Source: Desulfuromonadales bacterium (lineage in GTDB: Bacteria > Desulfobacterota > Desulfuromonadia > Desulfuromonadales > BM103). Taken from it: DNA of 64,000 bases. The notes under the pieces are model-generated. The model searched no databases. It saw only the letters and a program-made list of their open reading frames with translations, and had not been told where the DNA came from. Where the stretch lies: contig JAQYVY010000016.1 in the NCBI GenBank assembly GCA_030145195.1, positions 1-64,000 of the forward strand, written 5' to 3'. A program made the position numbers and the translations under genes. The stretch's first letter is position 1, and the number at the start of each line of letters is the position of its first letter. Positions 15,812 through 27,274 of this stretch are shown piece by piece.

Positions 15812-16285
15812 TTAATAGCCTAATTTCTTATAAACGTGATCCTGAAAGTGATAATTATCGTTGTCATTGTGCATTTTATACTTTTGTATCGCAAATGAAA
15901 CAATATTTGGGGAGAAAGGAACAAAAATAGCACCAATATCTCTTATTATTGGCGGGCAAGTACCCTGCACCATAGACCTTGAATTATCAAGATTTACACC
16001 AATAATGGTGCATCCTTTTTCAATGGCAACCTCTGCCTCCCATCTAACGTATTTATGTTTGCTCTTCGTGTCACTACCAATGAGCATTACATATTTGCCT
16101 GCCATTTTGATTCTCTCTCGGCACTTTTGCTTTATGTAAGTTTCATTTTCTGAATTCACTTCAGTTTGAAGCTGACAGTTTGCAAAATCAAATTCGATAT
16201 TGTCATTCGCCTTCCATGCCTGCATAAGTCGGTAATAACGAATATCAGTACTACTGAAACCAACAAAAGTTCTTGGTAACCCCAT
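15812..16285 (-). CDS. TIR-like (DUF1863/MTH538, ThsB-like) protein B
   Basis: A 157-residue single-domain protein. TFVGFSSTDIRYYRLMQAWK, the stretch NSENETYIKQKCRERIKMA, VMLIGSDTKSKHKYVRWE and GCTIIGVNL follow the order seen in DUF1863 TIR-like proteins such as ThsB of Thoeris, which make NAD-derived signals after phage sensing. GGAGG lies five bases before the ATG. It is the last gene of island module 1, after the two TPR proteins, and is more AT-rich than its neighbours. No ThsA effector is adjacent, so it is not a standard Thoeris pair; the TPR proteins may take that role. Function inferred. Confidence 0.75.
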   Translation of the reverse strand: MGLPRTFVGFSSTDIRYYRLMQAWKANDNIEFDFANCQLQTEVNSENETYIKQKCRERIKMAGKYVMLIGSDTKSKHKYVRWEAEVAIEKGCTIIGVNLDNSRSMVQGTCPPIIRDIGAIFVPFSPNIVSFAIQKYKMHNDNDNYHFQDHVYKKLGY

Positions 16286-16411: not shown

Positions 16412-17641
16412 TCAAACGGCTTCCAATGCATGCTTCTTGCCTAATTCAAAAGTTTCCAATTCCCATTCGGCCAGGGCTTCTTTTCTAAATAACACCTCAT
16501 AAGTATCTCCGTCATGACTTTTCCCGGTGGCATAAAAACAATTGGCCAATGTGGCGTATACCCACCGGCGGTCGGTACGTTCATCAAAAGAGGGTTGAGC
16601 CAAATCATCTGTAAGTTCAGCGATAATTTCTTCGCGGACCTTACGTGCGCTCATCCGATCGTATAGAGCTTCATCATGGTCTGAATGAAGGCGAACTCTA
16701 AAATCATAGCATGTTGCGAGGTTCTCACCATTATAGTAATCACGCCGAAACTCGAAGCCTCGCCCATAATGGCGAATGGCAGCGTCTAACTGTGAGGGGT
16801 CTTGAGTTTCCAACCACAGTCGTTTGTATATAGCTCCCGTAATTCCACAAGTCTCTGGATCGTTCGATGTGTCAGGATGAAGGGCAGAGATGACCATCAG
16901 ACCATTCATGAGTGCGGCAATCTCTGAAGGTTGCTTGGACTTGTAAGTGGCAAGAGCGAGCTGCTGAAGAATGAAGGGCTCATTTGGCTTGAGCTGGTTG
17001 GCTGCATTATAAGCAGTGACAGCATCACTATGGCGACTTTCTTTGCATGCAGATTCACCTGCATGCATATAGCCTGATAGGCGCTCTTGCTCTGCTTCCT
17101 TCTCGTCCAGCAACTCAGCGAACTCATCATCGCTCATTCTGGGTTGCTGAAGTTTCGGCAGGAAAGTGTAGACGGGGCTATCTGGCCGCTGCGCAACAAG
17201 CACTTCTTCGATTAGTGCGTGCAAGTCACGCGACGCCCGTACTGCCTCACGAGCACCGATATCCTCACCCAAATGTTGGTATTCAAATGTACTGACATGG
17301 TCTAAATCAAAATAGAGGCGGCCTTTGTCCTCTTTCATGATTATGGTCGAGTTAGGCCGCAGTGCATGACGGACCCCAAGCTCGTAGACCGCATTGACGT
17401 TACCTGTAGAGATGTCAGCTATCACCAGTTCAGCACGCAGCAGCATTTCGTACATCTCAGTATCAATAACACCGGAATGCATAACCTCGTCCGCACGTAT
17501 GCACCGTAGTCCTGCATTTTCTGCTGCCGGGTGGATAATTGCCTCGTAGGTGGCGTTTAGATCAAGGGTCCGACCTGACTCAAAGTCAGTTTTCTTCCCG
17601 AATCCCATCACAACAAAACAAAGCTTACGGTTATCTGTCAT
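16412..17641 (-). CDS. Deoxyribosyltransferase-like (DRHyd) domain fused to a TPR scaffold
   Basis: 409 residues. The N-terminal 130 form a nucleoside 2-deoxyribosyltransferase-like Rossmann domain (CFVVMGFGKK, IRADEVMHSGVID, ELVIADISTGNVNAVYELGVRHALRP). The rest is helical repeats of the TPR type also found in the regulatory region of animal ASK/MAP3K5 kinases ('TRAFs-binding'). Such TPR scaffolds were proposed to sense NAD-derived nucleotides (Burroughs and Aravind, from memory). The likely role is an effector or sensor acting on nucleotides. The ATG at 17641 with GAGGG upstream is preferred; ATG 17734 would add 31 residues and has a weak site. It follows the hydrolase-TPR gene. Confidence 0.75.
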   Translation of the reverse strand: MTDNRKLCFVVMGFGKKTDFESGRTLDLNATYEAIIHPAAENAGLRCIRADEVMHSGVIDTEMYEMLLRAELVIADISTGNVNAVYELGVRHALRPNSTIIMKEDKGRLYFDLDHVSTFEYQHLGEDIGAREAVRASRDLHALIEEVLVAQRPDSPVYTFLPKLQQPRMSDDEFAELLDEKEAEQERLSGYMHAGESACKESRHSDAVTAYNAANQLKPNEPFILQQLALATYKSKQPSEIAALMNGLMVISALHPDTSNDPETCGITGAIYKRLWLETQDPSQLDAAIRHYGRGFEFRRDYYNGENLATCYDFRVRLHSDHDEALYDRMSARKVREEIIAELTDDLAQPSFDERTDRRWVYATLANCFYATGKSHDGDTYEVLFRKEALAEWELETFELGKKHALEAV

Positions 17642-17754
17642 TAGTCCCTCGCTAGTTTTACCAAACACATTTACGGCTGAAGCTATCTCACATGGCCGTA
17701 ATTTCTCAATATTGGCTTTTTCTGGGTCCACCATGCCTGGCTAGAATTTACGCC

Positions 17755-19173
17755 CTAAGACAGGCCAAACACCTCATCTATCTGTTTGGCACCATCTTCC
17801 CCAAACACACGCAATGCAACGGTCACAGCTTGCATGTGCATAGAATCACATTGGCGGAGATCTTTTGCTAACCCCCGAGCCCCTCGATAAGCGTCTACGG
17901 CAACTTCCAAATTGCCAAGCATCAGGTGGGCCTCACCTTTAGTTGCGCAAGTCCAGTGGTTTTCATGTGCCGCATCAACGTGGCCCAGAGCTCTCCTCGC
18001 CATTTCCTTGACTTCAGTGGTTGGGGGACCGTCCCCTGCTTCTGACAATAGTCGGAGGAAAGCCACGTTAATGGCATGGTAATAAGCTTGGCTATGGTCC
18101 TTACTGGCCTCAGCGCACTCAAGTCCTTCATTATAAAGCTCAAGAGCACGGTCAAAGTCTTGTTCTTGGCGAGATGTCATCCAGCGACGCTTCAACCGTC
18201 CCGCCAGTACTCCTATGGGATCAAGCGAACGACGCTCGTGAGCGTCGTTCCATTTCTCAATAACCTCAATCGCGTCTTCATTGCGGCCAACACTTTCGAG
18301 TGCCAGTGCCAGGGTAACAATTGCATCTGCATCGAGGCCGTCTGCACCAGGCAACAGTAACTCAATAGCATGATTGAATTCATTGTGCTCTACCGCTAGT
18401 CTTGCGCTCTCGACTGCACTGAAAGCCCCACGGGAGTCGGTCAGAGTTTTATAGAACAGCTCGTATGAATAGTGGTCAGTAGAGTCAGGTCTTACAATTC
18501 CCAAGTGATTGCCCGGTACCACAGCCTGCTGCGAATTTGGAAATGGATCAATTGACGATGATGCAGGAACGAAAGCGTCGGTTTCTCCAGCAATGGCGGT
18601 AAAAGAGAAAAGTGGCCGTTCTCCGATTGTATTCTGCCAATCCTCTCGAAGTTGTGTAATAAACGTGCTTCCAGCACACATGTCGCTTGCCTGTCGCTTA
18701 ATGCGTGCTACTAAGGAGGCCTTCAACACACCCGCGCTTGGAGTGCCGTAGAGCAGCACATGCCTTAGGCGATTCCTCAATTCCTCACTGTCAAGAATAG
18801 CCCGCTGAACTACGAGCCCCCCCATACTATGAGCAACCAGGACAATAGCTTGATAACTATCAAGCGGAGCGAGCCTTAGCTTTGTAGTCAGCCCAACAGC
18901 ACAAACACGAATGTCTGGATCCGAGGTCCAAATTGGCAGATCAATAGAAAGGTTGGTCGGATACCCTGCACTATAAACATCCCAATCGTTCAAACGGTGA
19001 TCATTTAAAAAGTTTGTCAAAAAAGAAGCCCATGTTGTGCCAACATCTCCACTGAAACCATGGACAAAAATGACTGCAGCACGACTCCCGGCGTTCCTAT
19101 TCTCTTCGAGGGCCAACGACAGATCTTTATTCCCGACACCAAATATTTTGCAAAAAATGTCTTTAATAATCAC
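17755..19173 (-). CDS. Alpha/beta hydrolase (lipase-like) fused to a TPR scaffold
   Basis: 472 residues. The N-terminal half is an alpha/beta hydrolase: VIFVHGF (oxyanion, 38-40), nucleophile elbow AHSMGG (Ser116), candidate acid Asp199 in GETDAFVP and His223 in GNHLGIV. It resembles lipase/esterase effectors that could attack membrane lipids. The C-terminal half (from about residue 240) is TPR-like (HNEFNHAIELL, NEDAIEVIEKW, FDRALELYNEG, LEVAVDAYRGA). The same layout, effector then TPR scaffold, appears in the next gene with a different effector domain. It starts with GTG overlapping the stop of the SLOG gene by four bases, so the two are translationally coupled. Probable membrane-damaging effector, inferred. 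Confidence 0.78.
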   Translation of the reverse strand: MIIKDIFCKIFGVGNKDLSLALEENRNAGSRAAVIFVHGFSGDVGTTWASFLTNFLNDHRLNDWDVYSAGYPTNLSIDLPIWTSDPDIRVCAVGLTTKLRLAPLDSYQAIVLVAHSMGGLVVQRAILDSEELRNRLRHVLLYGTPSAGVLKASLVARIKRQASDMCAGSTFITQLREDWQNTIGERPLFSFTAIAGETDAFVPASSSIDPFPNSQQAVVPGNHLGIVRPDSTDHYSYELFYKTLTDSRGAFSAVESARLAVEHNEFNHAIELLLPGADGLDADAIVTLALALESVGRNEDAIEVIEKWNDAHERRSLDPIGVLAGRLKRRWMTSRQEQDFDRALELYNEGLECAEASKDHSQAYYHAINVAFLRLLSEAGDGPPTTEVKEMARRALGHVDAAHENHWTCATKGEAHLMLGNLEVAVDAYRGARGLAKDLRQCDSMHMQAVTVALRVFGEDGAKQIDEVFGLS

Positions 19174-19739
19174 AGATTTCTCCGCTTTGTGAGCACTGAT
19201 TTTTTCTCAAACCCCTGAGAAAGCGCATTATTGAGAAAATCGGCAGTAGAATCATCTGCCCCACGAGATTTACCTTCCCAAACAACAAAAGCAAGCTTTC
19301 GCTGGAACCGCGACCTTAGAGCCGAATGTATTATTCGAGAGTTAGCCTCTGAGAAGGCATTTTCATCGTCGGTAGCGAGCCCAAGCTCGATAAGATCATC
19401 TCGGCTGTGAGCTTCCGTCACCAAAAGGTCATAACGCTCTCCCCAATTTCCTGGTCGATCGATAACTGAAATATTCCGGAAACGATCTGGATCAAAGGGC
19501 AGCACAATAGTGGCTGGGATAGCTAATTCTTTTGCAGCTTCAAGGGCGAGGATATCTGCTCCACAGGCCGCAGAGCAGACAAGACGTTCGACACGTTCCT
19601 GACGGAAGCGACGAATAATCTTGTGCAGCACGTATTCAGCTTCTATCAGGGGAAAGCGCGAGGCATCGGCGTCTTGTGCGTCGATCCGACGGCCAGCAAG
19701 AGCTGCGACAGCAGGGGTAAGGCAATCCTGATCTACCAT
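19170..19739 (-). CDS. SLOG/LOG-like nucleotide-binding protein
   Basis: 189 residues. VCSAACGADILALEAAKELA followed by IPATIVLPFDPDRFRNISV has the Rossmann layout of the SLOG superfamily (LOG/DprA-like), whose members bind or generate nucleotide signals. A DNENAFSEANSRIIHSAL-like helix near residues 115-140 could form part of the pocket. The ATG at 19739 has GGAGGGAGGG ten bases upstream; an upstream GTG at 19772 is rejected. Its TGA overlaps the GTG of the hydrolase-TPR gene. I infer a nucleotide sensor or messenger enzyme paired with the TPR effectors. Ligand unknown. Confidence 0.7.
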   Translation of the reverse strand: MVDQDCLTPAVAALAGRRIDAQDADASRFPLIEAEYVLHKIIRRFRQERVERLVCSAACGADILALEAAKELAIPATIVLPFDPDRFRNISVIDRPGNWGERYDLLVTEAHSRDDLIELGLATDDENAFSEANSRIIHSALRSRFQRKLAFVVWEGKSRGADDSTADFLNNALSQGFEKKSVLTKRRNL

Positions 19740-19822
19740 TGGTAGTTTTCCCTCCCTCCCATGAGTGCCCACATGACTAATGGTGACGTGAATATAAAAG
19801 TCGGGCGCCGAAAAGTCTTTTA

Positions 19823-20305
19823 TTACAATTCATCCGAAAGTTTCGACCAGGGTACCACTTTGATATCCTTGGGGAGCCAAGCGGGCTTTCCCCCTTGTAG
19901 ATTGGCACCCGAATGTACCGCGATTACCCTCTTGCCCAGCTCACGGCTCTTGTCGACCTCCCACTTAACCCATTGGCTTTGTGCTGTATTCGCGGAAAGA
20001 TAAACAACAGTAGTTGAAGTCCTTTGGATACGTTCTGCAATTTTGCGCTTAATGTATTCCGCCCTCTCACTATTGTACGGTTCACGTACCGAGTGGTCAT
20101 TAAACTCGATGTCACTTTTATCGTTTTTGGCTTGCCCGCGGAGTAAATTAACCTCATTCATGTCCTCAGTTGCAAAACTGATGAAGACATTTCGATTTCC
20201 ATCCTGAGGCGCTTCCTTTGCCTTTTGAAGCGCTTCTTTTGCCTTTTGTTCGAGCGCTCGAATATCCCCGAGAGTGCTCCACCCACCACCACCGTCACCA
20301 CCCAT
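19823..20305 (-). CDS. TIR-like (DUF1863, ThsB-like) protein A with Met-Gly-Gly N-terminus
   Basis: 160 residues: a glycine-rich tip MGGDGGGGW, an amphipathic helix (about 12-34), then a TIR-like DUF1863 domain from residue 39 (NVFISFATEDMNEVNLLRGQ, NSERAEYIKRKIAERIQRTS, VVYLSANTAQSQWVKWEVD, ELGKRVIAVH). GAGGAGG six bases upstream fixes the ATG at 20305, so the glycines are truly N-terminal after Met removal; the longer frame from 20350 is rejected. It starts one base after the stop of the QueC-like gene. Recent work, as I recall it, reports that QueC-like enzymes of type IV CBASS and Qat attach a deazaguanine to an N-terminal glycine of a partner protein; this protein is the obvious candidate here. 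Confidence 0.8.
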   Translation of the reverse strand: MGGDGGGGWSTLGDIRALEQKAKEALQKAKEAPQDGNRNVFISFATEDMNEVNLLRGQAKNDKSDIEFNDHSVREPYNSERAEYIKRKIAERIQRTSTTVVYLSANTAQSQWVKWEVDKSRELGKRVIAVHSGANLQGGKPAWLPKDIKVVPWSKLSDEL

Positions 20306-20306
20306 A

Positions 20307-20897
20307 TTAGGCCTCCTCGAACTTGTATTCATTGCACGCAATACATTCACCGCAGGCTTTTTCTCCGCCTATATGGCAGGAGTATGTATTTTCAATTCCT
20401 TTGTGCCTAGCGAGCGCGACAACATCAGCTTTATGAAAATCAGCAAGAGGGGCGAGAACTCTGATGCTCTTTCCCATGCAACTGCTAATCAGGCCTTCGG
20501 CATCATGAAGAAATGCTGAAGTTTGATCTGGGAAAAGATGAGTACTTTCGTGAAGCAGCCCTATCGAGACAGTATCGGCACCAACTTGATATGCATAGGC
20601 TGCAGCTGTTAATAAAAACAACATATTCCGCCCAGGTGTGAATGCGTCATCGACTATATGAAGATTGGGGTCGGTAAGTCCCGATCGAATGAGTGCACCG
20701 AAACCGGAGAGGTCTGCCAACTTCGGCTCGGGTAGATTGAGGTCGATCATCGCTCGCCGGCAAGCCGCCAACTCCCGATCGCGTGAGCGCTGGCCATAAT
20801 CGACAAATAACGGATATTGCTGTAGGCCTTCTTCCTGTGCAAGTTTTGCGACAAGGACCGAATCGAGACCACCCGACACAAGCGTGACAATACTCAT
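20307..20897 (-). CDS. QueC-like 7-cyano-7-deazaguanine synthase family protein (Cap9/QatC-like)
   Basis: 196 residues. It has the ATP pyrophosphatase loop SGGLDS (8-13) and a C-terminal zinc site with C174, C182, C185 and C188, as in QueC, which builds preQ0 from carboxy-deazaguanine. No queD, queE or folE lies nearby, so housekeeping queuosine synthesis is unlikely. Neighbours are a DNA glycosylase, a TGT-like protein and TIR proteins, which matches the accessory set of type IV CBASS (QueC = Cap9, TGT = Cap10, OGG = Cap11). The ATG at 20897 overlaps the glycosylase stop (ATGA). A role in protein or nucleobase modification for defence is inferred. Confidence 0.88.
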   Translation of the reverse strand: MSIVTLVSGGLDSVLVAKLAQEEGLQQYPLFVDYGQRSRDRELAACRRAMIDLNLPEPKLADLSGFGALIRSGLTDPNLHIVDDAFTPGRNMLFLLTAAAYAYQVGADTVSIGLLHESTHLFPDQTSAFLHDAEGLISSCMGKSIRVLAPLADFHKADVVALARHKGIENTYSCHIGGEKACGECIACNEYKFEEA

Positions 20898-21601
20898 ACT
20901 GCTACAGTCTCCATATTCCGATTCGCCACACGCATAACAATCCATATTGCCCAATCAAGAAGCCCAACCGGGCAATCTAACTCTTGAGCATGTTCGCAAA
21001 GGGCATCCTCATGTAGCTGATATTGTTTCAGGCCAGAGATAAAATGCTTAGTTCCCGAATAGATACCTAACCTTGACATGTAATTCAGAACGTGGCGGTC
21101 GAGGATTGCAAGATCATAACTTACACCAGCATTACGCAAAAACATGCTGGCCTGTTTGGGCCCTATGCCAGGAACATGCTCGACAAACCAAGTGCGAGCC
21201 TCCGTAGCACAATTGAAGTTATTGACGAGTTCGCGCAGTGAACCCGTTTCCGACGTGATGGTCGCACGTGTTGCTGTAAGGTGCTGAGCACGAGCCACAG
21301 GGAAACGATACTTGCGAGACCGCCCTTCGACGATTAGTGGTGTGCTCAATAGTTCAACTAATTGCGGCATCAAATTCTCTATGTCGCTTTGAGCGTTCAG
21401 TAGAAGCTTTTTTTCATCAATAGCATTAGCTGCGGCGACAGCAAGTGGGTAAGGAACCTGACTACTTAAAATACAGGATGATAGCTCCCACCACAGGCGC
21501 CGTTCGCTGCGAGGGTTGGTGTCGCTTCTCACTCGATCCAAGATATCAGGACAAATAGCGGCGACAGCATTTGAGAGATTTTCAATTTTGTATTGATTCA
21601 T
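20894..21601 (-). CDS. OGG-like HhH-GPD DNA glycosylase/lyase (Cap11-like)
   Basis: 235 residues of the endonuclease III/OGG superfamily. The helix-hairpin-helix reads HVPGIGPKQASMFLRNAG, with the candidate Schiff-base lysine K149, followed by LAILDRHVLNYM with the catalytic aspartate D168. The N-terminal WELSSCILSSQVPYPLAVAAA is the usual helical-domain opening. No iron-sulfur cysteine set is seen at the C-terminus, which favours the archaeal-type Ogg/Cap11 group over Nth. The start at 21601 gives an ATGA overlap with the TIR-TGT gene; an in-frame ATG at 21607 is possible. It probably excises or recognises a modified base made by the neighbouring enzymes; this is inference. Confidence 0.82.
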   Translation of the reverse strand: MNQYKIENLSNAVAAICPDILDRVRSDTNPRSERRLWWELSSCILSSQVPYPLAVAAANAIDEKKLLLNAQSDIENLMPQLVELLSTPLIVEGRSRKYRFPVARAQHLTATRATITSETGSLRELVNNFNCATEARTWFVEHVPGIGPKQASMFLRNAGVSYDLAILDRHVLNYMSRLGIYSGTKHFISGLKQYQLHEDALCEHAQELDCPVGLLDWAIWIVMRVANRNMETVAV

Positions 21602-23022
21602 TCGCATAATCCAGGCACTTTTTGCATAAATTGTCTCGCAGTTTGACCCATTTTATACACCAAAAAAGCTTCAATATTATCTTCGTTAAAGTACTTTCGC
21701 ATCTCACGGATAAAGCTATCATAGTAATCAAGGTTATGAAACACAGCTTTCGTGCTAAAAGTTATCCCTTCATTTTCTAAATAAACTCTGGCAACTGGTG
21801 ATTCAACCATGCCTATCTGGTTTATAAAAAGGTCGAAATGCTGAAAATGATGAAGTCGGTCCGATGCCCTATCGACAACCATTCTGCACCATTCCAATCC
21901 ATCAAAGGTGTCCGCACCCGCTGCAGCGAGAACTGGGATAGTCCAAGGATTTCCGGTGCCTAAAATGTGAATCGGTTGATAAAAAGGTAACTGACTTAGT
22001 TCCTGTCTAATCGCCAGTACAGTTTTAGCCCGCTCGATAAGTCCGAATCCGAGGTCACGCTCTGGAATGCCAATCAGTGGAGGGTTAAGTTTTACCGCAA
22101 CTTCACGGACAATCCGTTGAATACTATATAGCTCGCGTTCACCCTGCTCTAGTTTTAACGCATGCACAATTGGAATTACCGGAGCAGAAGTGAACAAGCT
22201 ATCTCGCTCTACCGCATTTATTATCTGTTCAACAGCAAGGGCTGGATCTGGTCTTGAGCCTGTTTCATCAACACCATCAAAGCAGAACGCCCAATCATGT
22301 GGTGCGTGAGAAAGTACCTCCTTTAAACTGTCAGCATTCCATGACTTATCTTTTAAACGGAAAGCTTCATAGTAACCAGAATCGATCAGGACAAACCCGC
22401 CACTATCTCTGTATTCGGTTAACTCTTTGAGCATTTCCTCAGGAGCACGACTTTTGTCCAAATCATATGCTGAAACAAGTATGTTTGGTGCTTCAAATAT
22501 ACGAAGTGCGGCCACTGCATCTGACGGAATAAGTTGTGTCTCATGCGACGACACTGATGGGAAAAATGTTGGTAGTGGGATGCGATCATTAGCAATTGCG
22601 GATAGTCGTCTCGGCTTTTTATTCGGTGCGACTTTTGTAGATATTTTTATTTTTAACAGCAAAACCTCTGGATGGTCTGCCTCCCCCTTCCAGTCTTGCA
22701 AATCTATTTTACTGTTTATGTTATAGGGATAAGTCGGTTCACTTTTGCCAAGCTGAATAGGTATTATCGGCTTTTTATATCTGCGTGCTAACTCTAATTC
22801 AGCAAGAACTGTATCCTTATCTCTAGAAATTTCAGTAAACAACGCAACCACACAACTTGTTTTTTGAATCTCTTCTTCGATTGTCGGGTTATAAGGTCCA
22901 ACAATGTAATCGTCCCACCATGTGTCCCACGGCTCAGATAGGAGCCCATAAATTTCTTTAGCAATCAGACGGTCTTCTCTCGCATATATAATATAAATGT
23001 CGGACATATATCGCTTATCCAT
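21598..23022 (-). CDS. TIR domain fused to a TGT-like (tRNA-guanine transglycosylase) barrel
   Basis: 474 residues. Residues 7-100 are a canonical TIR domain (DIYIIYAREDRLIAKEIY, WWDDYIVGP, SCVVALFTEIS, LAELELARRYKKPIIPI), with Glu75 at the usual NAD-hydrolase position. Residues of about 150-474 resemble the TGT/DpdA TIM barrel: FVLIDSGYYEA near 212 (compare DSGGFQ), IPIVHAL, then HILGTGNPW and GADTFDGLEW near 371. The CxCxxC zinc site of tRNA TGTs is not present. This joins an NAD-cleaving or signalling domain to a base-exchange enzyme. ATG at 23007 is an alternative start. It overlaps the OGG gene and is preceded by the PfkB fusion gene. I do not know a described system with this fusion. 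Confidence 0.82.
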   Translation of the reverse strand: MDKRYMSDIYIIYAREDRLIAKEIYGLLSEPWDTWWDDYIVGPYNPTIEEEIQKTSCVVALFTEISRDKDTVLAELELARRYKKPIIPIQLGKSEPTYPYNINSKIDLQDWKGEADHPEVLLLKIKISTKVAPNKKPRRLSAIANDRIPLPTFFPSVSSHETQLIPSDAVAALRIFEAPNILVSAYDLDKSRAPEEMLKELTEYRDSGGFVLIDSGYYEAFRLKDKSWNADSLKEVLSHAPHDWAFCFDGVDETGSRPDPALAVEQIINAVERDSLFTSAPVIPIVHALKLEQGERELYSIQRIVREVAVKLNPPLIGIPERDLGFGLIERAKTVLAIRQELSQLPFYQPIHILGTGNPWTIPVLAAAGADTFDGLEWCRMVVDRASDRLHHFQHFDLFINQIGMVESPVARVYLENEGITFSTKAVFHNLDYYDSFIREMRKYFNEDNIEAFLVYKMGQTARQFMQKVPGLCE

Positions 23023-23069: not shown

Positions 23070-24221
23070 CTACTTGACATGCTCCGCTGCAGCCCAAGCT
23101 GCGAAATAAAGTGCTGAGGCAAAATCATCTATGACGGTAACATCGGGTCCGTCGGCTAACGCCCCCGCCGTTTTCACTCCACTTTCTCGTAAAATAACAA
23201 TGGGTATTCCGCCAGCTTTGGTTCTTATTTGTTGAATCGCTTCGTCATCAAGCCCCTCAGTGAGGGCAAGGACTGCTTTTGCTGTCGAATTTATGGAGCT
23301 GTCCAATGCTGGACAAAACACCTCAACTCCAAGTTCGCGCAATACGAATCGTGCCTCTTCAATCGTATAACGTTGTCCAAGAGTATCGGCCACACCCTCA
23401 AGCAAAACGGAACCTGGAGCTGTGAACTGAATCGGTATCAGACCACTAATTTCTTCATCATTAAGTGGTAAACACCCGGCACTGCAATATGCAGCGACCC
23501 AACGTGAGGAAAGGTCTGCAGCATTAACTGCGGGCAAACCCTTCTCAGCCCAGAAATGAGTAAAAATTGCACTGAATACATCTCCGGTGCCGATTTTGAA
23601 CACACGCGACGAGCGGTATGCAGGGACAGAAGTGATTCTTCCACCACGTTCAAAGACCGTAGCTCCTCGTATTCCCCTTTTAGCGACAACAACCTCTGCC
23701 CCTTGATGCTCCATAACACTTAAAGCTGCCGCCTTAAGATCGTCGAGACCAGCAGCGGATTGGAGCTCAAGTTCGTTAAGCACAATTGCAAGTTCTTTCG
23801 CAACTGATCCATTTGCGCCAAACAGAGCCGGGTTTCGCCAGGTCTGTGGGTCATAAACAGCACGGCGAGCATTTACGATGGCATCTCCTTCCAGGAATCC
23901 AAAACGAAGTACGGCATCACCACTGACTTGAATTTTAGACTGACACTCAATCTCAGCGGTTGGGGGTTGAATAAGTGGTCTCGACAGTGGGTGAAAGTAT
24001 GTAAAAACAATAGCAGTTGGGCGCAGGCTTAAACGCATCTCGATGCCCAGTTTCTTTAGAGAAGCAACACTTTCGCTGTCGAAATCTTCAGAATAGGTAT
24101 GGAGGGTACTTCCGGGCGAGAGTGTAGAGACGGCCACTGCGGCTCGGCCACCAGAACCAAATATGGCGTCCCACGCAGGTATACAACATTGTTCTCGATA
24201 AAGCCCACCGACTATATGCAT
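23070..24221 (-). CDS. PfkB-family kinase fused to a nucleoside deoxyribosyltransferase-like domain
   Basis: 383 residues. The N-terminal part (about 1-265) is a ribokinase/PfkB fold: ALFGANGSVAKELAIVLNE, VVVAKRGIRGATVFERGG, then the anion-hole motif KIGTGDVFSA near 210 with the catalytic Asp. The C-terminal part (about 275-383: TLGQRYTIEEARFVLRELG, VEVFCPALD, GIPIVIL, VTVIDDFASALYFAAWA) resembles nucleoside 2-deoxyribosyltransferases. Together it could phosphorylate nucleosides and exchange their bases. It is the first gene of the module by position and direction, 47 bp before the TIR-TGT gene. Substrate and role in defence are inferred. Confidence 0.75.
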   Translation of the reverse strand: MHIVGGLYREQCCIPAWDAIFGSGGRAAVAVSTLSPGSTLHTYSEDFDSESVASLKKLGIEMRLSLRPTAIVFTYFHPLSRPLIQPPTAEIECQSKIQVSGDAVLRFGFLEGDAIVNARRAVYDPQTWRNPALFGANGSVAKELAIVLNELELQSAAGLDDLKAAALSVMEHQGAEVVVAKRGIRGATVFERGGRITSVPAYRSSRVFKIGTGDVFSAIFTHFWAEKGLPAVNAADLSSRWVAAYCSAGCLPLNDEEISGLIPIQFTAPGSVLLEGVADTLGQRYTIEEARFVLRELGVEVFCPALDSSINSTAKAVLALTEGLDDEAIQQIRTKAGGIPIVILRESGVKTAGALADGPDVTVIDDFASALYFAAWAAAEHVK

Positions 24222-24734: not shown

Positions 24735-26117
24735 CTAGTTTTTTTTCCCACCAAACGTTTTCATCACTTGACTACGAATGGCATTAAGGTTCATTGCACT
24801 TTCATCTATTCTGCGTAGCATTTCACCCAATTCCTTTCTGGTACGCGCGTCATCTTCAAACATTTCAGACTGATGAGGACTCCTGTCACTTCCTTGTACA
24901 TGACCGTACTCATACCATTTGAAGTTCGCCGAAATGAGAGGAAAAACCTCAACGTTAAGCACACCAGTAGTAAGCGTTCTCAAATCAAATTTCGCTGAAT
25001 CACGATTTCGCAACAAAACCTCCATTTCAGTAAGTGCGATATCACAAGTCGGAGAAGACAACCAATGTACTGGCCGCTCAATTTCTCTTTTCAGTAACCA
25101 ACCCAGTCCACTTCCGTAATTGGCCACAGAGGTCTCTGGTGTCAAACCAGCGCAAGCCCCGTACCACAATAGGCTCTCAGGACAGGTTGAAAGCACCGGG
25201 AAAAGAAGAGAAAAGTGATCGAGGCTACCAGGTTGAATTCTGCTCACCAGGTAACCAAGCAGAAAAGCTTGATGTTCCCGGTTTTTCTCTAAGCCATTTA
25301 CTAGACTCTTAACCTCTACCTCAACTGCTTTGACTCTATCTTCGCGCGGCCCCTCTAACACCTCAAAAAGAGCCACAATCTTTTTGGATCTACCATATAG
25401 TTTCGTCCAGATACTCCGAGGGACGCGGCCATCAATAAGCACTCCCTGAAGAGCGTCCAAAAGCAAACGATTTACCACAGAATTACTTTGAGACTCGCGT
25501 GGGGAAACAGCGCATCGGACAATTTCCCATACATCGCTGATCCTGCCGGAAGATAAACCCAAGGATTGTTGTTGCAAACACTTACGGGCAGAGAGCCACC
25601 CTTTTTCTATCTGACTGAAGACCCCCTCTTGATCTCTATAGACCTGATTGTAATGTTTAAGGCCTTTTGCGAAAGCAAAAGACAACGTTCGAACGTAAGC
25701 CGAAAGTGGCAACTTTTTAACATCTGTGCGGCTGGCTGAATACGCTATTACCTCAGCTAAAATAAGTCCTATATCTGCCGATTTCACATCATGCATAGGA
25801 GGGGACTGATGGGCTTGTTCTGCCAATCGAGCGAGGGATGGTGTAAGAACACGGCATTGCGCTGTAAAAGGTCGGAGGTGTTTGAAATATGTAGATATCC
25901 AAGCAATGAAATCCGGCACGCCTCCTTCGGCAACAATGACTGCACTTGGCAATACAAACCTTTCGGATGGAGATTTTTGCCAGACAAGTATGATGTCTTC
26001 ACCTTGGACAAAGACATCTTCAATCGAATCAATCCATTGAACATCATGCGAGTTCAAAGGCTTTTGGTCTGCAAAGAAATCTACAAATTGGCGACGACTA
26101 CATAGCCAATGAAACAT
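24735..26117 (-). CDS. Unknown protein, third gene of kinase-helicase module
   Basis: 460 residues; I recognise no domain. It is mostly helical in appearance, with FAFAKGLKHYNQVY, a run of charged helices (PREDRVKAVEVEVKSLVNGL) near 265-285, and a C-terminal heptad-like tail (RKELGEMLRRIDESAMNLNA). No membrane span, signal peptide or nuclease motif is obvious. Its ATG shares one base with the helicase stop (TAATG), so expression is tied to the helicase and kinase. It ends about 125 bp from the middle att remnant. It could be a sensor or adaptor of a defence module. Confidence 0.75.
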   Translation of the reverse strand: MFHWLCSRRQFVDFFADQKPLNSHDVQWIDSIEDVFVQGEDIILVWQKSPSERFVLPSAVIVAEGGVPDFIAWISTYFKHLRPFTAQCRVLTPSLARLAEQAHQSPPMHDVKSADIGLILAEVIAYSASRTDVKKLPLSAYVRTLSFAFAKGLKHYNQVYRDQEGVFSQIEKGWLSARKCLQQQSLGLSSGRISDVWEIVRCAVSPRESQSNSVVNRLLLDALQGVLIDGRVPRSIWTKLYGRSKKIVALFEVLEGPREDRVKAVEVEVKSLVNGLEKNREHQAFLLGYLVSRIQPGSLDHFSLLFPVLSTCPESLLWYGACAGLTPETSVANYGSGLGWLLKREIERPVHWLSSPTCDIALTEMEVLLRNRDSAKFDLRTLTTGVLNVEVFPLISANFKWYEYGHVQGSDRSPHQSEMFEDDARTRKELGEMLRRIDESAMNLNAIRSQVMKTFGGKKN

Positions 26118-27274
26118 TATTTAGTACCTCCAAAAACTTCTTCTATCGTAGGGGGCAGAGGCTCGGGCTTCAACAACTGAAGAGCTGCATCAAAATATCC
26201 ATGCAAATCATCACAATGATAGACAGATAATGCCGTTTTTGCCCTCGTAACAGCCGTAAAAGTTAGAGCTCGATTACGCCCAAAAGATTTAAGTTCATCA
26301 CAAGCAGCCAAGTGAAGTGCGCGGAATTCTAAACCTTTCGCAGAATGGAATGTAGATATTACAATTGGTTTGTCCGGTGGGAACATATCGTCCGAACTCC
26401 CATGAAGAAGAAAGGCTTTATCCGAATGCTTAGACTTGCTAAGTATATCCCAAATGGCATTCATTGTGTCTCTTTTCGGGCAAAGGATACCTATAAGTTC
26501 ATTAGGAAAAGTAACAAGCTGTGTCTCTAGCCGCGACATTATCAACTCGACTTGTTCTTCGATTGAGTCGCATTTCGTGCAATTAACAGTTGATGGGTTG
26601 GCCACTTCATCATAATTAGACGTTTCAGCTAACGGCTGATAACCGAGCAACTTCTTAGCGATTCCATCTGCGACGCGACAAATATTAACGCCATTTCGAT
26701 AGTGAAACTGCAATTCGTGAGGCTCTCCGATAACAGTTTTGATTATGTCTAAAGAATCTTCGTCATCATAAAGTTTCTGCCTTTCGTCGGCCACGCAGTA
26801 AAACCGGTCCGTTAAGCTTGAAAAGAGTCGAATCTCGTCTGGGGTATAATCCTGTGCCTCATCAAGAAGAATTGCATCATAAACGTTCGACAGTTCTAAG
26901 GAATCTACCTTCTTTTTTATTTCCACCAAAAACGCTTCACGGTCAGCCTTAAAATCATCGGTAGACTCTACATGCCCTCCATACTGTTTTATGAAATCAA
27001 TTTGCCACTCTCGACACGTCATAATCTTTGACGCAGGAAAATCGTAATTCTCCGCGCCGTTGGCAATAAACTCTCGTAAAGACCGAGTAAAAGTGACAAC
27101 TACGATATTGTGAAGCCCTGCAAGATAAAGGTAGTTCGCACGTAATAGGAGAAGATTTGTTTTCCCTGAGCCAGGAGGGCCTGTTATAAAAACGCTGTCA
27201 TCAACAGGTAATGCAATAATATTACGCTGTGTTTCATCCAACTCCGTCTGATCTACCCACCATGTTCCACTCAT
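26117..27274 (-). CDS. UvrD-like superfamily 1 helicase
   Basis: 385 residues. Walker A GPPGSGKT at 32-39, motif Ia-like VVVTFTRSL, motif II DEAQD at 138-142, motif III-like YCVADERQKLY, motif IV/V FHSAKGLEF and motif VI FTAVTRAKTALSV. It is short for UvrD and lacks large 1B/2B insertions, so it may be an ATPase switch rather than a processive helicase. The start overlaps the kinase stop and the end overlaps the next start, both as TAATG. Known partners of such compact UvrD proteins in islands include nucleases (for example Gabija), but no nuclease motif was found in its neighbour. Confidence 0.85.
   Translation of the reverse strand: MSGTWWVDQTELDETQRNIIALPVDDSVFITGPPGSGKTNLLLLRANYLYLAGLHNIVVVTFTRSLREFIANGAENYDFPASKIMTCREWQIDFIKQYGGHVESTDDFKADREAFLVEIKKKVDSLELSNVYDAILLDEAQDYTPDEIRLFSSLTDRFYCVADERQKLYDDEDSLDIIKTVIGEPHELQFHYRNGVNICRVADGIAKKLLGYQPLAETSNYDEVANPSTVNCTKCDSIEEQVELIMSRLETQLVTFPNELIGILCPKRDTMNAIWDILSKSKHSDKAFLLHGSSDDMFPPDKPIVISTFHSAKGLEFRALHLAACDELKSFGRNRALTFTAVTRAKTALSVYHCDDLHGYFDAALQLLKPEPLPPTIEEVFGGTK

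Follow-up and report, generated by a model that had tools for sequence, protein, structure and literature searches.

A QueC-like gene followed by a Met-Gly-Gly TIR gene: a candidate N-terminal deazaguanine acceptor in a probable type IV CBASS-like operon

The window, that is the whole stretch of 64,000 nucleotides analysed here (Desulfuromonadales bacterium, contig JAQYVY010000016.1), carries on its minus strand a unit of five genes that overlap or almost touch. These genes encode, in this order, a PfkB-like kinase, a TIR-TGT fusion, an OGG-like glycosylase, a QueC-like enzyme and a TIR protein with a glycine-rich N-terminus (Table 1). The C-terminal region of the kinase is without family match and resembles, by eye, nucleoside deoxyribosyltransferase-like folds. 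Downstream of the unit, the SLOG-like protein gave no match in Pfam, PADLOC or NCBIfam, and the gene of the alpha/beta hydrolase fused to TPR-S occupies the place of the SLATT gene found in most relatives. Upstream of the unit, at 24735-27274 of the window, lie two co-directional genes, possibly a separate defence pair; one product looks by eye like a UvrD-like helicase/ATPase and its partner has no Pfam match.

Table 1. Genes and sequence features at the locus (positions in the window)
Feature	Position	Strand	Remark
PfkB/ribokinase-family kinase with C-terminal extension	23070..24221	-	first gene of the unit
TIR_2 domain fused to a Cap10-like TGT domain	21598..23022	-	putative reader of the N-terminal tag
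OGG/AGOG-type HhH DNA glycosylase-like protein	20894..21607	-	catalytic Lys/Asp motif GPKQAS...LDRHVL
QueC-like protein (Cap9-type), 196 aa	20307..20897	-	putative N-terminal deazaguanine ligase; Pfam QueC 2e-37
GAGGAGG, Shine-Dalgarno sequence of the acceptor gene	20312..20318	-	within the end of queC
ThsB-type TIR protein, 160 aa	19823..20305	-	putative acceptor; flexible tail, helix 13-28
Gly2 and Gly3 codons of the acceptor	20297..20302	-	predicted modification site (Gly2 once Met is removed)
Protein with SLOG-like (Rossmann) motifs, by eye	19170..19772	-	50 bp downstream of the acceptor
Alpha/beta hydrolase with fused TPR-S sensor domain	17755..19173	-	putative effector
TPR-S/TRAFs-binding protein with N-terminal TIR-effector-like region	16412..17734	-	putative effector or sensor
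Second ThsB-type TIR protein, MGLPRTFVGF start	15812..16285	-	without glycine tail; recurrent companion

The TAA codon of queC (20307-20309) is followed by the single base 20306 and then by the ATG of the putative acceptor gene (20303-20305), and the GAGGAGG motif is located six bases upstream of this ATG. An arrangement of this kind, with a QueC-like gene, a one-base gap and a TIR gene starting MGGDGGGGW behind GAGGAGG, had been described in an earlier note on this DNA and is confirmed on the minus strand. The start of the protein reads MGGDGGGGWSTLGD... / MGGDGGGGWSTLGDIRALEQ..., with MGGDGGGGW as N-terminus. In-frame TTG and ATG codons occur upstream of this MGG, both inside queC, and a GTG still further upstream gives an ORF of 175 amino acids. 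In three related loci (L011, L012 and L025), the open frame of the acceptor starts at the MGG itself, so that an upstream start is impossible there. In the AlphaFold2 model, residues 1-10 have a mean pLDDT of 39 and are predicted to be disordered; a helix and the TIR core, which begins at about residue 38, come next. A disordered N-terminus is needed in substrates that receive an N-terminal deazaguanine (NDG; PMC13279940). The protein matches ThsB_TIR with 1.7e-23, and the solved folds nearest to its model are 8fz9, a TIR protein of B. cereus, and ThsB. Its conserved glutamate, E116 in WVKWE, belongs to a WVxWE motif; it is invariant among the acceptors and aligned with the glutamate of ThsB.

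The unit is found well beyond the window. Genes for PfkB, TIR-TGT, OGG, QueC and the acceptor occur in the same order and on a single strand in all 25 loci, which comprise the window, one viral contig, rhizobial plasmids and alpha-, beta- and gammaproteobacterial genomes (Rhizobium, Methylobacterium, Methylotenera, Pseudomonas, Halomonas, Marinobacter and Brenneria are included). Every acceptor in these 25 loci starts with MGG, no more than 14 bases ahead of the queC stop and no more than 5 bases past it. In the alignment, G2, G3 and G7 are invariant, W9 and D14 are nearly so, and the remaining linker is variable and has indels. All four Gly codons are used at G2 and also at G3. Thus, the amino acids and not the DNA are conserved at these positions and, as the linker varies in sequence and in length, the two glycines are under purifying selection. 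Since the acceptors of the main family are 64-76% identical to one another, shared descent explains part of the MGG conservation.

The earlier note had suggested comparing the N-termini of homologues located beside QueC-like genes, and this comparison supports its proposal: all acceptors start with MGG, versus none of the 19 ThsB-like TIR proteins encoded away from queC in a phylum survey. Most of these 19 proteins have 2-6 residues ahead of the TIR core, and queC was not found in the flanks of their genes. Among 1455 ORFs, 27 start with MGG, mostly acceptors or CD-NTases of CBASS; once these are subtracted, the background is about 9 of about 1,430 other ORFs (<1%). On viral contigs, about 50 QueC genes, most of them canonical, had no convincing MGG gene next to them, which serves as a rough negative control. 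In one of the loci (L033:5736-9771, Pseudomonas gessardii), an insertion appears to have split the TIR-TGT gene, whose two pieces are separated by about 2.4 kb; the acceptor and QueC are retained.

The QueC-like enzyme (P0002) contains the motifs SGGLDS, YGQRSRDRE, RN, FPDQ and Cx7CxxCxxC. It shares with canonical queuosine QueC the RN motif and an intact PP-loop (SGGxDS) and zinc motif. Its score with the NCBIfam QueC model is 115.8, under the equivalog cut-off of 150.3. It matches the CBASS QueC model of PADLOC with 2.7e-26 and the Cap9 structure 9nto of the PDB with 7e-12; in single pairwise matches, E. coli QueC scores above Cap9. Canonical QueC is characterized by YxQxHxxE, whereas Cap9 has Y/FxQ(x)5E (PMC13329287). 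Counted with regular expressions, hence approximately, Q(x)5E is present in 28/28 TIR-linked QueC and in 3/3 Cap9 of CBASS; QxHxxE is found in neither group (0/28 and 0/3) and occurs in 63 of 79 other QueC. In a QueC tree, TIR-linked QueC and Cap9 of CBASS group in separate clades (100/99 each), and long branches prevent their junction from being placed. Taken together, the PADLOC match, the match to 9nto and Q(x)5E point to a Cap9-type QueC with a putative ligase role.

The base-recognition motif is FPDQ in 28/28 TIR-linked QueC, in place of the YPDC/YxDC motif, of which Cap9 has the YxDC form. This favours the idea that the enzyme adds to the N-terminal glycine a group other than 7-carboxy-7-deazaguanine (CDG), as may hold for QatC, which has altered recognition residues and an unresolved reaction (PMC13279940). 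However, the Asp and an aromatic residue are kept in the motif, and the TGT-family reader keeps its base-site Asp motifs, which fits a deazaguanine. In E. coli QueC, a variant with Phe retains partial activity (PMC13329287). We regard a group other than CDG as very improbable.

The TIR-TGT protein (P0004), whose conserved start is probably Met6 (23005-23007), brings the strongest support for the proposal of an acceptor, as its TGT part is, by sequence and by fold, a relative of Cap10; this relative was absent from the earlier note. The TGT part matches the type IV CBASS TGT model of PADLOC with 4.5e-27. Its best sequence match in the PDB, by profile, is 9ntn (4.6e-11), the structure of Cap10 in complex with NDG-modified CdnD, that is, with the deazaguanylated N-terminus of a CD-NTase. 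The alignment for structure prediction was built without the plasmid loci, and an AlphaFold2 model (mean pLDDT 85) again has 9ntn as top match by fold (Foldseek, 1.2e-13). A VIA search with residues 116-463 of the fusion also places 9ntn first, with a Z of 26.6 and an rmsd of 3.0 over 294 residues, the next rows being at 23; the TIR portion was assigned by Pfam. E75 of this fused TIR domain is invariant. The base-site motifs DSGxYE and FDGLEWC are present in 26/26 TIR-TGT proteins. Binding of Cap10 to the NDG-modified N-terminus has been reported for type IV CBASS (PMC11996544).

QueC, TGT and OGG are all base-handling enzymes, and 7-deazaguanine DNA modification systems exist. A nucleic acid could accordingly be the target: QueC would make a free deazaguanine, TGT would insert it into DNA or tRNA, OGG would recognise unmodified or damaged sites, the TIR proteins would be effectors and the MGG tail only a linker. 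Several observations argue against this scheme, which we consider quite unlikely. The TGT domain is nearest to Cap10, and the zinc motif CxCxxC, present in both other TGTs of the host genome, is missing in 26/26 TIR-TGT proteins; on these two grounds, a role of this TGT as a tRNA or DNA modifier was rejected. A PADLOC scan of P0004 that included the Dpd models returned the CBASS TGT model as sole match. The host genome already has a separate canonical queC (G000:C46) and two further TGTs, and QxHxxE is replaced by Q(x)5E in the enzyme of the unit. Finally, the scheme leaves unexplained why G2 and G3 are invariant at the extreme N-terminus of a protein with a variable linker.

A locus of a Pseudomonadota genome (L143) is informative with respect to type IV CBASS. 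It encodes SLATT, a stand-alone Cap10 without TIR, OGG, Cap9 and a MGGGSGGGLFSSD-TIR protein, which starts with MGGGSGGGLFSSDIRSLED (MGGGSGGGLF-TIR) behind a clear ribosome site. Judged from its genes, this locus is a type IV CBASS with a TIR protein in the place of the CD-NTase, and it is a case independent of the main acceptor family. The compact operon (L143:4893-8178) adjoins type I restriction genes. No second copy of this architecture was found in viral scans with its Cap10 or in a class-wide genome search. Three type IV CBASS loci (L013, L144 and L170) encode Cap9, Cap10 and an SMODS CD-NTase that starts with MGG (MGGSGGGFF, MGGGGGKSS or MGGGGAYTP); by eye, all three have a small membrane-protein-like gene, and L144 and L170 an HhH-like gene. 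The parallel between L143 and these loci indicates that the acceptor of one and the same kit can be a CD-NTase or a TIR protein.

On a viral contig (L115:1-3327), a divergent MGG-TIR gene is followed by genes for a helical protein starting with MGH and for a QatC-like enzyme (PADLOC QatC, 1.1e-50). The first base of this contig coincides with the start of the TIR gene, so that a Cap9-type gene may lie upstream; the MGGGGGGG-TIR protein was not used as independent proof of a Gly-TIR/QatC pairing. The helical protein has seven relatives (L119-L125); a large gene lies downstream of them, and an MGG-TIR gene is absent upstream. Nearly all members of this helical family start with MGH..LPRTRKW, and they may be QatB-like acceptors without the long tail.

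NDG was discovered on the CD-NTases of type IV CBASS. The unit of the window has in common with these systems a Cap9-type QueC, a Cap10-type TGT, an HhH/OGG-like gene, SLATT-type companions and an acceptor whose MGG stands on a glycine-rich tail predicted to be flexible, and the gene set of L143 is nearly the same as theirs. Unlike type IV CBASS, the unit lacks a CD-NTase (SMODS, PF18144, gave no match in the whole host genome), the acceptor is a TIR protein of the ThsB_TIR family, Cap10 of the main family bears an N-terminal TIR domain, and a PfkB-like kinase and TPR-S proteins are added. The likeness to Thoeris lies in the acceptor and companion TIR proteins, both of the ThsB_TIR family. Unlike in Thoeris, the acceptor has a glycine tail and adjoins QueC and Cap10, and a PADLOC scan of ten proteins of the window gave no match to ThsA. 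As in qatABCD, a QueC-family enzyme adjoins a partner whose disordered tail bears an N-terminal glycine (PMC13279940), but this partner is a TIR protein and not the helical QatB, QatA and QatD are lacking, and P0002 has no QatC extensions and matches only the QueC model of PADLOC. The earlier note starts from QueC-like enzymes of type IV CBASS and of Qat that attach a deazaguanine to an N-terminal glycine of their partner. For Qat, the N-terminal glycine of the partner is needed and the modification itself has not been reconstituted (PMC13279940). The function of the QueC enzymes of other defence systems is stated to be unknown in the same paper.

The proposal that the TIR protein is a candidate N-terminal deazaguanine acceptor thus gains support from the MGG of all acceptors, the Cap9-type Q(x)5E and the relative of Cap10. 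Starting from features established at the level of sequence (the operon, its homologies, the invariant MGG, the conserved catalytic residues and the absence of a CD-NTase), we consider it likely that the unit is a type IV CBASS-like immune operon in which a ThsB-type TIR protein replaces the CD-NTase, QueC tags Gly2, TIR-TGT reads the tag and the TIR proteins signal. The best reading of the operon is then a CBASS/Thoeris-like hybrid. By analogy with type IV CBASS, the QueC-like enzyme would activate CDG using ATP and ligate it to the Gly2 amino group of the Met-less TIR protein, forming NDG; the Cap10-like domain of TIR-TGT would then bind the base and the glycine tail. The host genome has its own queC and QueD with a QueE-like frame directly alongside (this QueE-like match scores below the family cut-off), so that CDG should be made. 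The later steps are drawn more loosely. Binding of the reader would place its own TIR domain against that of the acceptor. The paired TIR domains would be the active enzyme and, upon sensed infection, would produce an NAD-derived nucleotide signal, with the linked TPR-S and SLATT proteins as its receivers. A homologue of the TPR-S/TRAFs-binding protein adjoins the core in 25/25 loci (in L014 and L016 the profile scores are weak, at 30-40), SLATT does so in most of them, and on plasmids without QueC, TIR genes likewise adjoin TPR or DUF4231/SLATT genes. We infer that this linkage fits TIR-made signals read by TPR-S/SLATT proteins. The post-translational switch on NAD signalling put forward in the earlier note is plausible in this context.

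The same sequence evidence would also agree with a tag having the opposite effect. The MGG tail would be tagged and read, but the tag would keep the TIR proteins inactive until infection removes the base, with the OGG-like protein as eraser or sensor. An OGG-like gene with its catalytic motif is indeed part of every operon (regular expressions find the Lys motif in 26/26 and Lys plus Asp in 24/26 proteins), and an HhH protein is encoded in type IV CBASS loci. On the other hand, the link in NDG is an amide, whereas OGG-type enzymes cut glycosidic bonds of DNA. Moreover, conjugation in type IV CBASS is described as essential for defence, not inhibitory (PMC11996544). We find an inactivating tag unlikely, and retain the proposal that tagging of Gly2 and its reading by TIR-TGT lead to signalling.

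In the PMC papers searched, no description was found of a QueC-TIR operon, of a TIR protein as acceptor or of Cap10 fused to TIR; the paper on type IV CBASS may mention them. N-terminal deazaguanylation is already known, and a TIR acceptor with a TIR-fused Cap10 would, from the genes at hand, be a new variant. The broader proposal, for which we see the arguments as evenly balanced, is that of a new immune class in which deazaguanylation of a TIR protein and its reading by TIR-Cap10 yield a mixed TIR enzyme, the NAD product of this enzyme activates TPR-S/SLATT proteins, and NDG is a general handle. The reading that we favour predicts a mass shift of +176 Da at Gly2 (calculated as CDG minus water) and binding of the modified protein by TIR-TGT. 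One example does not explain the role of the tag in type IV CBASS. If the proposal is true, writers and readers of the same families would serve a second, unrelated acceptor fold, which would make NDG a transferable handle for docking of proteins onto one another, and the case would offer a natural experiment on the reason for the reader's own TIR domain. CBASS and TIR/NAD signalling would then be joined, and nucleobase tagging of proteins would be linked to TIR immunity.
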